Assembly (NCBI GenBank): GCA_013151915.1
Contig: JAADHJ010000010.1
Coordinates: 1-64,000, forward strand
Direction of reading: 5' to 3'
Origin: Deltaproteobacteria bacterium
Lineage (GTDB): Bacteria > BMS3Abin14
DNA: 64,000 nt
In this document: in pieces, positions 5,843 through 61,682 of the stretch
Layout of the letters: every line of letters starts with the position of its first letter
How positions within the stretch are numbered: the stretch's first letter is position 1
The notes under the pieces: generated by a model
Told to the model about the DNA's origin: nothing
The model's database searches: none
Seen by the model: only the letters and a program-made list of their open reading frames with translations
Made by a program: the position numbers and the translations under genes

Positions 5843-5873
5843 TGTCTTTACTCCCTTGTTTTTGATCACTTTA

Positions 5874-6007
5874 GATAGAGTCGTAAAAAGTCCATCCGTG
5901 GCTTTTTACTTCACGAAAAGCGAAAAATTCATTTTCGCTTTCCTCACAAATCTTCAATTTGGACGCCCCTAAGGGGACGCGTTGATGACTTCACAAGAAG
6001 TCTTCAA
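5874..6007 (+). repeat. Hairpin repeat family 1, full copy
   Basis: The copy starts with the signature GATAGAGTCGTAAAAAGTCC and ends with TGATGACTTC...AGTCTTCAA. It contains the five hairpin blocks described for the copy at 34131. The right end runs into pta: the last codons of pta, encoding about [10 protein letters not shown], and its TAG stop are read from the repeat. Confidence 0.85.
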
Positions 6008-12118: not shown

Positions 12119-12312
12119 TGTTCAACGGGATAAGAAACGTTCAAAAGTTCAAAATGTTCAATGTTCAATGTTCAAAAGTTCAATGTTCAACGTTCAAAAG
12201 TTCAATGTTCAAAAGTTCAATGTTGGACCTTGCTTTACCTATAGCCTATAGCCTGCTCTACCCCGTTGAACCTTGAACGTTCTTTCCCCACGTTGAACCT
12301 TGAACGTTTTTT
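12119..12312 (+). repeat. Heptamer-type tandem array (GTTCAAT/GTTCAAC/GTTCAAA)
   Basis: About fifteen degenerate 7-base units of the GTTCAAN type fill most of the gap between the response regulator and the TamA-like gene. They are followed by GCCTATAGCCTGCTCTACCCC and GTTGAACCTTGAAC pairs. No open reading frame or terminator is clear. Confidence 0.75.
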
Positions 12313-21027: not shown

Positions 21028-21040
21028 CTAATTCCTTCCC

Positions 21041-21158
21041 TCTGTACTCTATACTCTGGACCCTGGACTCTGGACTCTTATGACTCTGGACTCTTCCCTC
21101 TACTCTGGACTCTATGACTCTGGACTCTATGACTCTGGACTCTGGACTATGGACTCTG
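21041..21158 (+). repeat. Heptamer-type tandem array (GGACTCT/ATGACTCT)
   Basis: Fourteen or so units of CTGGACT or TATGACT give a near-continuous 7- to 8-base periodicity across the gap between coaBC and the MBL hydrolase gene. The same unit occurs at 57654-57680 and, as its complement, at 62661-62698 and 59281-59332. Confidence 0.8.
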
Positions 21159-21170
21159 TCATCCCCTTTA

Positions 21171-22291: not shown

Positions 22292-22307
22292 AAACCTTAC
22301 TGATCCT

Positions 22308-22442
22308 GATAGAGTCGTAAAAAGTCCATTCGTGGCTTTTTACTCCACGGAAAGCGAAAAATGTCATTTTCACTTTCCTCACAAATCTTCGATTTGCGCT
22401 CCCTTCAGTGGGAGCGTTTATGACTTTTTACAAAGTCATCAA
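22308..22442 (+). repeat. Hairpin repeat family 1, full copy
   Basis: It runs from GATAGAGTCGTAAAAAGTCC to AAAGTCATCAA with all five hairpins. Hairpin D here is CGCTCCC/GGGAGCG, where the copy at 34131 has GCGCCC/GGGCGC, a compensated change. The murJ reading frame runs into the repeat and takes its final residues (about DDFVKSHKRSH) and its TGA stop from it. Confidence 0.9.
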
Positions 22443-28457: not shown

Positions 28458-28481
28458 AACGTTCAATGTTCAATGTTCAAC
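28458..28481 (+). repeat. Short GTTCAAT heptamer run
   Basis: About three GTTCAA(T/C) units lie between leuS and the adjoining family-1 hairpin repeat. The unit is the same as at 12119-12312 and 63928-64000. Confidence 0.6.
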
Positions 28482-28590
28482 ACGCCCATGGGGGGGCGTT
28501 CAAATCGAAGATTTGTGAGGAAAGTGAAAATGACACTTTTCGCTTTCCATGGAGTAAAAAGCCATTAATGGACTTTTTACGACACTGTCA
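28481..28590 (-). repeat. Hairpin repeat family 1, copy lacking the last hairpin
   Basis: On the minus strand it runs from GTCGTAAAAAGTCC to the ACGCCC/GGGCGT hairpin; the terminal TGATGACTTC hairpin is missing, where GTTCAAC heptamers take over. The stop codon of the response regulator at 28588 sits at its left border. Confidence 0.85.
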
Positions 28591-28962: not shown

Positions 28963-28989
28963 CTTCAATCTCCAGACCGTCTGAAAGCT

Positions 28990-29138
28990 GATGACCTTTT
29001 ACGAAGTCATCAACGCGCCCCGCATGGGTCGCCCAAATCAATGACTCGCACCATAAGTCATTGATTTATGAGGAAAGCGAAAATGATACTTTTCGCTTTC
29101 CGTTAAACAAAAAGCCGCGGATGGACTTTTTGCGACCA
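28990..29138 (-). repeat. Hairpin repeat family 1, copy with enlarged hairpin
   Basis: Hairpin C, usually CAAATC/GATTTG, is here extended by a nested insertion so that AAATCAATGACT pairs perfectly with AGTCATTGATTT over 12 bp. The other hairpins and the signature GGTCGCAAAAAGTCC (minus strand) are present. An insertion that keeps pairing supports a structural role. Confidence 0.85.
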
Positions 29139-29150
29139 TATAAAAGTAAA

Positions 29151-32089: not shown

Positions 32090-34156
32090 TTACCCGCTCG
32101 GCTCCATCAGGGATCGGATGGTCAGCCGCACGGTCCTGTCCGGGTCGGAATCGGCCATTTCAAGGAGTGTTCGCTCTACCTGATCTCCACCTTTCCCGAC
32201 GAGGGAATGAACGGCGAAAATCCTTGTGCTGGCATCCTTATCCCCGAGCGCCTGCATGAGCAGATCAAGACCGGCGTCTGAAGGGATGTTCCCGAGGGTC
32301 CGGCAGACGGCACGCCTTATCTCCACGGTCCCTTCGATAAAAGCCTCCTTGAGCAGTTTCATGGGGACTTCATATCCTGCGCTCACCCTGCGTCCCAGGG
32401 CTTCAATAACAGCGGTCTTCAACATGAGATCTTCGCCATGGAGAATATCGGACAGATCCCCGGGATCCAGGTCCGGCTGCATACTGAGGGATGTGGCGGA
32501 CGCTGCCCTGACCCATGGATCCTGGTCGTAAAGAGCCGATTTGAGGGGTTCAACGGCGCCTTCCGGCCTCATGATTTCCAGGGCCATGGCGGATTCCGAC
32601 CGGACTTGGGGATCCTCATCGCTTAAAGCGCCCATCACAGCCTCGGCCGCTTCTGATCCCTCACAACGACTGAGAGCCCGGACAGCCGAAGCCCTGATAA
32701 GGGGCTCCGAATCACGGAGGGTCCCAAGGAAAAGGTCGATATGTGTCGATGGGTCCACATCACCGAGCACCCTGATCAGGAGGGCACGGACCTCGGGCGG
32801 TGAAGTTCCCAGGTGAGGACCGATTTTTCCAAAAAAAGCCCCGGGATCTTTTTTGCCCAATACGGACAGGGCCGCTCCCCCAACCTCGACGACGTCCGGA
32901 TATTCATCAAAGAGGAGGGAAAGGATGGAGTCTATGGCATCAAAATCCCCAAGGGCGGCCAGGGCAAGGACGGCATCCTTTCGGACGTGCCCGCTGACAT
33001 CTCCGAGCATCGGGATTATATGGGAAAGCAGGCCCGCGCCGCCCAGCTTTGTCAGAACCTGCAGGGCTTTTCTTCGAATGTTTCCCTCAGGGTTCTGGAG
33101 AAGTGAAAGGAGGATCGTGCGGTCCCTATTGCCGATGGTGAAGAGGGCCATGCCGACATCGCCCTCCAGGGAATCATCAGCGATAAAGGCGAGGACGGCC
33201 TCGGTGGCCCTGTCCCCGCCGATGAGGCTCAGGGCGGCAAGACAGTCCTTTCTCTCCTCAATCCGGTCGGCAATCTCCAGATGGTCGATCATGAACGATG
33301 TAATCTGCTCATCGGCATTATCCGCCACAGCCGCGGCAAATTTTTCGAGGTCTCCACCGGTTTCTTGCGCCATGGCCCTTCGATAGATAGCCCCCAAAGC
33401 CGCGAACGCCGCTTTAACAGCACCCCTGGGAAGGGATGGGATTCGGTCGATGAGCCCCAACCCATCGCTGATGGAGCCGATCCTCCCTATTCCCCGAACC
33501 GCGGGTGCGGCCAGAATACGGTTGTCAAGAAAACGGAAGAACGAAGGCAGCGCCTCCTTTGCTCCCAGGCTGGAAAGAGCGCTCAGGATGCTGAAAGCCA
33601 CCCAGTCATCGGCCGAATCGAGTGCACTGATGAGGGCGCTCACGGAGGACGGGTCACCGATGTTTGCCAGGCTCTCGGCTGCGGCTGCGCATATATTCTG
33701 CTCCGGATCATGGAGTAGTCTGATCAGATCGGGGACAAATGAAGGAGTGGCAATATTCCCCAGGATATCCACCAGAAACTTTCGGATATCCGGCTGCTCC
33801 ACCGACAGATGCTCGGAAAGCAGGGGAGCTGCTTCCCTACCCATCCTTCCGAGGACCTCCACGACGGAGTTTCTCAGGGTTACTTCATGGGTCGGGTCCA
33901 TCATGGGAATAAGACGGGAAATCAGCCCCCTGTCGGGCGCAAGCGAGGAAATCCCCTCAATGGCCTCTTTCCTGACCCGCCAGCTCTCATCGGACAGGGG
34001 AACAGGGAGCCAGCTGAGATCGTCTTCCGAAAGCCCCTCCTTCAGGTCCAGCATGGCCAGCCGCCGGACTTCCTCGTCCGGGGACTTTAATTCAGCAACC
34101 CGGGCCTCCCTGCCTTCAGGCTTCAATCCTGATAGGGTCGTAAAAAGTCCATCCAT
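32090..34156 (-). CDS. HEAT-repeat protein in chemosensory cluster
   Basis: The 688-residue protein consists almost entirely of HEAT or PBS-lyase-like helical repeats (examples: VPDLIRLLHDPEQNICAAAA, ALSDEDPQVRSESAMALE), about 18-20 units, without signal peptide, membrane segment or catalytic motif. Such alpha-solenoids act as binding scaffolds. It sits directly before cheR. The start codon (34154-34156) and the GGAG upstream of it lie inside a family-1 hairpin repeat, which supplies the first residues (MDGLFTTL). No alternative ATG exists before about codon 30. Related HEAT proteins occur near chemosensory genes in other deltaproteobacteria, to my recollection, but the function is unknown. 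Confidence 0.8.
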   Translation of the reverse strand: MDGLFTTLSGLKPEGREARVAELKSPDEEVRRLAMLDLKEGLSEDDLSWLPVPLSDESWRVRKEAIEGISSLAPDRGLISRLIPMMDPTHEVTLRNSVVEVLGRMGREAAPLLSEHLSVEQPDIRKFLVDILGNIATPSFVPDLIRLLHDPEQNICAAAAESLANIGDPSSVSALISALDSADDWVAFSILSALSSLGAKEALPSFFRFLDNRILAAPAVRGIGRIGSISDGLGLIDRIPSLPRGAVKAAFAALGAIYRRAMAQETGGDLEKFAAAVADNADEQITSFMIDHLEIADRIEERKDCLAALSLIGGDRATEAVLAFIADDSLEGDVGMALFTIGNRDRTILLSLLQNPEGNIRRKALQVLTKLGGAGLLSHIIPMLGDVSGHVRKDAVLALAALGDFDAIDSILSLLFDEYPDVVEVGGAALSVLGKKDPGAFFGKIGPHLGTSPPEVRALLIRVLGDVDPSTHIDLFLGTLRDSEPLIRASAVRALSRCEGSEAAEAVMGALSDEDPQVRSESAMALEIMRPEGAVEPLKSALYDQDPWVRAASATSLSMQPDLDPGDLSDILHGEDLMLKTAVIEALGRRVSAGYEVPMKLLKEAFIEGTVEIRRAVCRTLGNIPSDAGLDLLMQALGDKDASTRIFAVHSLVGKGGDQVERTLLEMADSDPDRTVRLTIRSLMEPSG

Positions 34157-34263
34157 GGCTTTTTACTCCACGGAAAGCGAAAAGCGTCATTTTCACCTTC
34201 CTCACAAATCTTCGATTTGAGCGCCCCTAAGTGGGCGCTTTGATGACTTCCTGCGAAGTCATT
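34131..34263 (+). repeat. Hairpin repeat family 1, full reference copy
   Basis: Five consecutive hairpins are visible. A is 34140-34166 (GTAAAAAG and CCAT pairing with ATGG and CTTTTTAC). B is 34172-34201 (GGAAAGCGAAAA with TTTTCACCTTCC, imperfect). C is CAAATC/GATTTG at 34205-34219. D is AGCGCCC/GGGCGCT at 34220-34239. E is TGATGACTTC/GAAGTCATTA at 34241-34263. It lies between two co-directional genes, giving the HEAT gene its start codon and the 34262 gene its TAA stop. Confidence 0.9.
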
Positions 34264-35212
34264 AATCCTCCCCCTCTTTCATCACCGTACCAACCCCTCT
34301 GGAACGCAGAAGGGCCAGCATCTCCTCCTTAAGCGCCGTCTCATAGCTGCCTCCGTACTCAGGGAACCTGCTCTTCAGCAGCAGAACCCCCTCTTCAAGG
34401 TCATCCGCGATCAACTCCAACGCCGTCTCAGGTACAGAACCCCGGATCATATCCTCGTTGTAAAGCGCAACATCTCCCACAATGATTCTGCACATCCTTC
34501 TCACGTCCTCCTCGAACGGCTCCCCGATCTGTTGGAGTGATTTCTGATGGATCTCCTCAATCTCTCTCCGGTCGTCAACTGCCAGGTCGGCATGCGCCCC
34601 GCCGACCTGCGGTTCAGACTCCGGACGGTCCCCGGATTCGCTCTCCAGGCCGACACAACGCCTGATCTTGGTGATAAGCATATCCGGCAGATGGTGTCTT
34701 TCTATATAATCGTCCGCACCGTAAAGGGAGGTGGGTTCCCTCTTGTAACGGGTACCGTGGTGGAGGGAAGCGAGCAGGATGGACGGAATGTGGTCTTCCC
34801 CAAGGGTTTCCCTCATCCGGTCAATCATTTCATACCCCAACATGTCGGGAAGGACCACGCTGAACAGAACCGCATCCGGCGGTTGGAGGGACAGGATCTT
34901 CAGGGCCTCGGTCCCTGTCGATGCGAGCCGCCCCCTGAATCCGTTTCTTTGGAGAATCCTCACAACGAGATGGCCCAGGGCCTGTTCCTGAACCACCACC
35001 AGAACCGTCAGGGCGTCTTCGGCTATCTCCTGCTCTTCCCCGGGCAGAACAATGGGGATCAGAGAACCGCACTTCCTGCAGTTGAAGGAGAAAACTCCAG
35101 GCGGCAGTTTGTCCGGATGAATCCTGTAAAACCTGCCGCACCCGGGGCATCTGAGGACAGGTGAGTCAACCTCGGAGGATTCCCCCATGTTTTTTTCAGG
35201 TGTTTTTTTCAT
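34262..35212 (-). CDS. Zinc-ribbon protein with degenerate (non-phosphorylatable) receiver domain
   Basis: The 316-residue protein has a zinc ribbon with Cys22, Cys25, Cys45 and Cys48, then a receiver-like domain at about 68-185 and a helical C-terminal region to the end. In the receiver the phosphoacceptor Asp is replaced by Ser118 (VLFSVVLPD) and the acidic pocket is missing (VLVVVQEQ), so canonical phosphorylation is not possible. It should act as a constitutive protein-binding module. The architecture parallels the gene at 11519, which keeps its Asp. It overlaps the CheW gene by 4 bp. The TAA stop is at the edge of a family-1 repeat. Confidence 0.8.
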   Translation of the reverse strand: MKKTPEKNMGESSEVDSPVLRCPGCGRFYRIHPDKLPPGVFSFNCRKCGSLIPIVLPGEEQEIAEDALTVLVVVQEQALGHLVVRILQRNGFRGRLASTGTEALKILSLQPPDAVLFSVVLPDMLGYEMIDRMRETLGEDHIPSILLASLHHGTRYKREPTSLYGADDYIERHHLPDMLITKIRRCVGLESESGDRPESEPQVGGAHADLAVDDRREIEEIHQKSLQQIGEPFEEDVRRMCRIIVGDVALYNEDMIRGSVPETALELIADDLEEGVLLLKSRFPEYGGSYETALKEEMLALLRSRGVGTVMKEGED

Positions 35213-53701: not shown

Positions 53702-53728
53702 CAATAAACCCCTTCTCCCTCAAATTCC

Positions 53729-53775
53729 GATAGGGTCGCAAAAAGTCCATTGATAACTTTGTAAAAAGTTATCAA
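53729..53775 (+). repeat. Hairpin repeat family 1, internally deleted copy
   Basis: Only the left-end signature (GATAGGGTCGCAAAAAGTCC) and the terminal hairpin remain. Hairpin E here is TTGATAACTTT/AAAGTTATCAA, while full copies have TGATGACTTC/GAAGTCATCA; the paired change keeps complementarity. The stop codon of the following gene (53772) is in its right border. Confidence 0.85.
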
Positions 53776-57549: not shown

Positions 57550-57653
57550 GTACCTCTACTTCCCCTCGAGCTCCTTTAAAGTTCCCGGAATGACGTTCAT
57601 TCGGACGCGGTCCCGCCAATCATGAGATTGCCGCTCCTCGTGTCCGGCTATCC

Positions 57654-57680
57654 CTCTGGACTCTGGACTCTGGACTCTGA
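57654..57680 (+). repeat. GGACTCT heptamer run
   Basis: Four consecutive CTGGACT units. With the promoter and leader at 57383-57549 and weak family-2-like words near 57620 (GAGATTGCCGC), this is what the gene-free stretch 57383-57848 holds; no mazG promoter was clear in 57681-57848. Confidence 0.7.
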
Positions 57681-61298: not shown

Positions 61299-61494
61299 GG
61301 CCTTTTCCCCATTACTGGCTTTCCGGCACAAGGGTACTTGGGGCTGTACGCTCCGCGCACATCCAAATTCCCCCGGTTTGAACATGGAGATATTACAACA
61401 GAAGGTCTTTGTTTCGCAACTTAACGAAAAATATGGCTACCCTGGGAGTCTGGGTGGGATTCTCCGACGAATCTGTGATCCGGCATGGAAAGAC
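61299..61494. other. Gene-free stretch upstream of the CHASE kinase
   Basis: The interval 61299-61682 holds no gene. Its middle is the family-1 repeat at 61495-61625. In 61299-61494 and 61626-61682 I see only a GC-rich leader and an A/G-rich tract; no clear promoter. Confidence 0.5.
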
Positions 61495-61625
61495 GATGAC
61501 TTCGCAAGAAGTCATCAACGCGCCCACCGAAGGGCGCGCAAATCGAAGATTTGTGAGGAAAGTGAAAATGACACTTTTCGCTTTCCGTAAGTAACAAAAC
61601 CATTAATGGACTTTTTACTGCCCTA
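61495..61625 (-). repeat. Hairpin repeat family 1, full copy
   Basis: On the plus strand it runs GATGACTTCGCAAGAAGTCATC, then GCGCCC/GGGCGC, AAATCGAAGATTTG, the GAAAATGACACTTTTCGCTTTCC block, and GGACTTTTTAC. The signature at its far end is slightly changed (GGCAGTAAAAAGTCC on the minus strand). It lies between the CHASE kinase and the receiver-PilZ gene. Confidence 0.9.
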
Positions 61626-61682
61626 CCAAGGATGAACGTGAGTCTGAGGATTCCAGGAAATCAGGGGGAAGAAGGGAAAAGT

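Follow-up and report, generated by a model that had tools for sequence, protein, structure and literature searches.

A dispersed MITE-like element at an operon junction as the probable source of the start codon of a HEAT-repeat gene

A 135-bp non-autonomous MITE-like element appears to have transposed into a junction between two chemotaxis-operon genes, and its ATG at 34156 is now probably the start of the downstream HEAT-repeat gene (probability about 0.7). Positions are those of the window, the whole stretch of 64,000 nucleotides that was analyzed, and the features are collected in Table 1. The element would have entered where two genes overlapped, the zinc-ribbon/response-regulator gene with its stop codon and the HEAT gene with its start, and transposition would have duplicated the target GGAT. 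Ribosomes would now initiate at the element ATG using the GGAG 9 nt upstream. This would extend the N-terminus of the HEAT protein by ten residues (MDGLFTTLSG), and a peptide with MDGLFTTLSGLKPEGR would be expected.

Table 1. Positions of the element, its target duplication, the candidate starts, and the neighboring genes in the window
Feature	Positions	Strand	Basis
Dispersed MITE-like element, full-length copy	34130..34264	-	Model match 1-135, 161 bits
Target duplicate GGAT (4 bp), left of the element	34265..34268	-	Flank table; duplication signal over 135 copies
Target duplicate GGAT (4 bp), right of the element	34126..34129	-	Flank table; duplication signal over 135 copies
Upstream gene with a response-regulator receiver domain and a zinc-ribbon match	34262..35212	-	ORF and domain match
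Upstream-gene stop TAA, made of element bases 1-3	34262..34264	-	ORF end (34262-35212) and element start
HEAT-repeat gene, PF13646	32090..34156	-	ORF listing and domain match
Element-borne ATG, likeliest HEAT-gene start	34154..34156	-	ORF, alignment with relatives, parallel cases
GGAG, Shine-Dalgarno-like, 9 nt 5' of ATG 34156	34166..34169	-	Sequence
In-frame TAA 5' of ATG 34156	34163..34165	-	Alignment row L031
TTG aligned with the relatives' start codon; native start position, rival start	34124..34126	-	Alignment
Start-codon hairpin GTAAAAAG...CTTTTTAC	34140..34166	-	-8.7 kcal/mol and pattern matches
Putative overlapping ORF within the element (29 codons if begun at GTG, 24 if at ATG 34190)	34116..34205	-	ORF listing
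Further element copy	5873-6006	-	
Further element copy	22307-22441	-	
Further element copy	28460-28590	+	
Further element copy	28989-29143	+	
Further element copy	61494-61628	+	
Partial element copy	53724-53763		

Element structure and distribution

The element is a chain of hairpins, and the interval singled out in an earlier note on this DNA is one end of it. A model of 135 positions was built from copies including the one at the HEAT junction itself, and it matched at least 150 sites in this genome and 53 in that of the sister species, the one same-genus genome. In a DNA search, 11 of 21 genomes had matches, namely this one and 10 of the 11 other family members, with no DNA match in the family genome G002 or in the nine genomes outside the family. 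Aligned copies mostly start with TGATGACTTCG and finish with ACGACCCTATCA; the ends, TGATGACTTCG and the reversed TGATAGGGTCG, are similar and look to the eye like imperfect inverted repeats. In the consensus fold there are four hairpins; one is GC-rich, two are CAAATCGAAGATTTG and GGAAAGNGAAAA...TTTTCGCTTTCC, and the fourth is the start-codon hairpin. A palindrome seen by eye at the left end of the element is absent from the consensus fold (pattern search). With up to 3 mismatches allowed, the start-codon hairpin pattern (34140-34166) matched four times in the window (mean of 100 shuffles, 0.00), and a second pattern from the element (34172-34196) had five matches, likewise against a shuffle mean of 0.00.

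Flanks were taken for 136 listed copies, and one copy without a left flank was omitted from the duplication test, leaving 135. The 4-nt flanks were identical in 26 of these (shuffled mean 3.3, maximum 9 in 1000 shuffles), and identical flanks of 3, 5, and 6 nt were found in 6, 6, and 0 copies, against shuffled means of 3.1, 1.2, and 0.05. The excess of exact 4-nt identity is the signature of transposition with a 4-bp duplication. The element shares several features with MITEs: it is short, dispersed, without a transposase gene, and flanked by this target-site duplication. Assignment to the repetitive extragenic palindromes (REP), given as 20-40 bp in PMC3733652, was rejected, since this unit spans 135 positions, contains several hairpins, and makes 4-bp duplications. 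In genome G000, copies lie at or near the ends of contigs C22, C43, C39, and C30, and tandem copies about 140 bp apart lie on C50, C17, and C16, which suggests that the assembly broke at these repeats.

Insertion at the HEAT gene junction

The upstream gene ends in GAG GAT TAA, and its TAA comes from the element; most of the listed copies have TGA at the place of this stop. The earlier note had placed ATG 34156 and its GGAG in repeat sequence, and the model match and the comparison bear this out, both lying inside the dispersed element. Nine near relatives of the HEAT protein (L032-L040) were collected and seven were aligned, after L038, which is masked and matches from residue 60 on, and L040, whose gene is truncated by a contig end, were dropped. 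In all seven, the chosen start aligns with codon 11 of the window gene, TTG 34126, and in the six relatives other than the sister species the aligned codon is ATG. This ATG is the first possible in-frame start in L035, L037, and L039, and it was our choice in L033, L034, and L036, which have start candidates farther upstream. Since the relatives' ATG aligns with TTG 34126, residues 1-10 of the window HEAT protein are additions. The eight repeat-derived residues proposed earlier (MDGLFTTL) become ten, as the element and the target duplication together contribute MDGLFTTLSG. Before the insertion, the junction would have consisted of a TGA stop overlapping the start, behind GGGGGAGG. Another palindrome-like sequence was seen by eye in L035 and L037 at the same intergenic place upstream of the HEAT gene.

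This genome and the sister species were compared at the HEAT, MerR, permease, and U32-peptidase genes by pairwise alignment with cheap gap extension. At the HEAT gene, the sister (L032) has the same left junction as the window, followed by gaps of 3 and 136 nt relative to it. There, 12-15 element bases are left, joined to a gene that starts ATG-ACT-TCG, so that the sister start is element-derived too. The 15-mer TTGATGACTTCGCAA occurs 16 times in the sister genome and 63 times in this one, and its reversed control occurs 0 times in both. At the U32-peptidase gene, the sister has the element-free site GAGGAGAAAGGTTTGAAAGC, in which a TGA stop and a TTG start overlap (by eye). In this genome, an insertion of 139 nt with non-identical flanks (AGAT and ACGT) occupies that site. 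Judged from the aligned sequences, the architecture is the same as that of the HEAT-gene insertion.

Candidate starts of the HEAT gene

The HEAT ORF on the minus strand has 688 codons and opens at ATG 34156-34154. The in-frame TAA close 5' of this ATG excludes starts farther upstream. The strongest alternative is that the native TTG 34126 still starts the gene, giving a protein that begins MKPEGREAR..., with the element as a 5' untranslated leader and the in-frame ATG incidental. We consider this unlikely. The TTG is intact and aligns with the relatives' start, and the lack of a genome-wide excess of the ATG frame and the nonconserved element codons of the permease case, both described below, also favor it. 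Against it, AGGA directly abuts the TTG, leaving no spacer, and the native ribosome-binding site GGGGGAGG now lies about 140 nt upstream, which makes ATG 34156 the likeliest start. Past the TTG, the next start is 75 nt beyond the element end, and its use would delete residues invariant in eight of eight aligned sequences. Among the 136 listed copies, an ATG stands at this place in 39, with GGAG at the same spacing in 23 of the 39.

Parallel cases and genome-wide tests

The element start is also favored over the native TTG by a gene for a YbgC-like thioesterase in this genome (PF13279, PF03061), which has an identical GGAG-9 nt-ATG from the element. Its next in-frame ATG, GTG, or TTG lies 225 nt beyond the element end, behind the DTD motif (residues 19-21) that presumably marks the active-site region. 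That start being too far downstream, the element ATG is the only one of these usual codons that keeps the conserved region; a start at a rare ATT could also serve. Candidate starts of the YbgC relatives lie 7-10 codons before the conserved stretch in six of seven, L183 (offset misplaced) and L189 having been left out of the comparison. On its left, this copy borders directly on the end of another one.

The MerR gene has a whole element in this genome. In the sister, no recognizable full element was found within 190 nt upstream of the gene; TGGAG, the 9-nt spacing, ATG, and MNGFFTTQSKL are retained, and the hairpin arm has decayed. The first 11 codons differ between the species by two synonymous and no nonsynonymous changes, and the next 129 codons by 29 and 19. 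The sister gene has a second in-frame ATG five codons farther upstream. At the permease gene, where the insertion is common to both species, the nine element codons carry four nonsynonymous and no synonymous changes and are not conserved.

Open frames of at least 100 codons behind the copies numbered 20, 15, and 21 in the three frames, without an excess of the ATG frame. Of the 18 copies followed by a frame-0 open frame, 8 had the ATG, compared with 27 of the 101 others (Fisher test, P = 0.16, with 17 of the 136 copies omitted for want of a recognizable loop). These counts show no general selection for in-frame insertion. The element starts with TGA, its right end is open in three frames, and GGAG and ATG are nearby, so it could land on stop-start overlaps and silence neither gene. 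That it serves as a portable translation-junction cassette, repeatedly rewriting protein N-termini across a prokaryote family, nevertheless seems doubtful.

Folding around the start codon

The earlier note had proposed that a hairpin covers the start region and that folding could control initiation. The hairpin exists, with the AUG predicted to lie mostly in its loop rather than in a stem (0.72-0.77 unpaired, and 0.35-0.63 for the GGAG). Regulation of HEAT initiation by this hairpin, for instance as a thermometer, a protein target, or an RNase target, is improbable. In its favor, none of 200 shuffles folded as well as the isolated hairpin (-8.7 kcal/mol) or the 201-nt leader (z -3.4), and 6 of 200 did so for the 61-nt start region (z -2.3). 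The predicted openness of the region from -15 to +12 was 0.32-0.37 here, whereas the sister reached 0.58-0.60 and four relatives 0.42-0.52; being less open than in these five comparators, the start region could have its initiation lowered by the hairpin. On the other side, the 86-nt start region had z -1.1, with 21 of 200 shuffles as good, and the consensus fold showed two-sided change in 4 of 37 pairs with a covariation term of 0.22. The HEAT gene of the sister has lost the hairpin (pairwise alignment), and the sister MerR gene has kept GGAG, ATG, and codons despite its decayed stem arm. The proposed control of initiation therefore did not hold up: with its mostly unpaired AUG, its near absence of covariation, and its loss at the sister HEAT gene, the hairpin around the ATG is a structural feature of the element family, and the predicted folds do not support a dedicated switch.

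An Rfam search over 34000-34400 returned two matches, at 16.6 of 35.1 and 12.7 of 42 bits, both far under their gathering scores. Together with the covariation and the missing sister hairpin, these do not support a structured RNA regulator of initiation. The first, an S10-Clostridia leader, overlaps the element and was rejected as an RNA family at a score so far under the gathering score. No promoter-like site was found in 33900-34500, and a terminator role for the element was rejected, as the two terminator-like sites both lie outside it. It is very improbable that ORF 34116-34205 is a leader peptide whose translation melts the hairpin and whose stop beside TTG 34126 allows restart there: the ORF overlaps both candidate HEAT starts and ends 6 nt beyond the TTG codon, but the element carries it generally and not specifically at the HEAT locus, and its translation is putative.

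Relation to known elements

Element ATG 34156 as the HEAT start would be of a kind already known from MITE 5' gene fusions, as in MITEAba12. MITEAba12 of Acinetobacter (PMC6382973) is likewise small, dispersed, and non-autonomous and has start codons close to its ends; three of its insertions are described as able to give neighboring genes the first four residues MQQS. It differs in length (113 bp) and sequence, and the effect described is tied to an outward promoter, whereas here the element contains a Shine-Dalgarno-like GGAG and makes the upstream stop, and the displaced native start is visible in relatives. The enterobacterial RU-1, RU-2, and RU-3 repeats (PMC2759123, PMC2229807) are described as small palindromic mobile repeats that form in-frame gene fusions, one of which makes up the N-terminal half of a protein. 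The fusions presented there are mostly long element ORFs or C-terminal, whereas here nine element codons replace the start. Rickettsia palindromic elements (PMC2229807, PMC10969869), about 150 bp long and palindromic, are read in frame as protein; those described are inserted within genes, in contrast to the position at a gene start, with its own ATG and GGAG, seen here. Coxiella QMITEs (PMC5896051) are MITEs that also alter protein ends, and the example given supplies a C-terminal end and stop, compared with an N-terminus here. In a literature search not targeted by organism, no published work pointing to this element family was found.

A mobile repeat that gives both the upstream stop and the downstream start is a seldom documented route of protein editing, and automated annotation would log such N-termini as ordinary starts. 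At the sequence level, the apparent replacement of stop and start within an operon has parallels in the same genome and seems to be partly retained in the sister. The frequency with which small mobile repeats are adopted as translation starts becomes testable.

Other repeats and insertions

At one further insertion shared by the two species (L154/L217), the sister has the element ATG and has TTG where this genome has the gene ATG, and this genome is without the element ATG. The window also has unrelated short direct repeats, resembling TTCAATGTTCAA and CTGGACTCTGG, at 12138-12231, 21034-21161, and 57648-57679.
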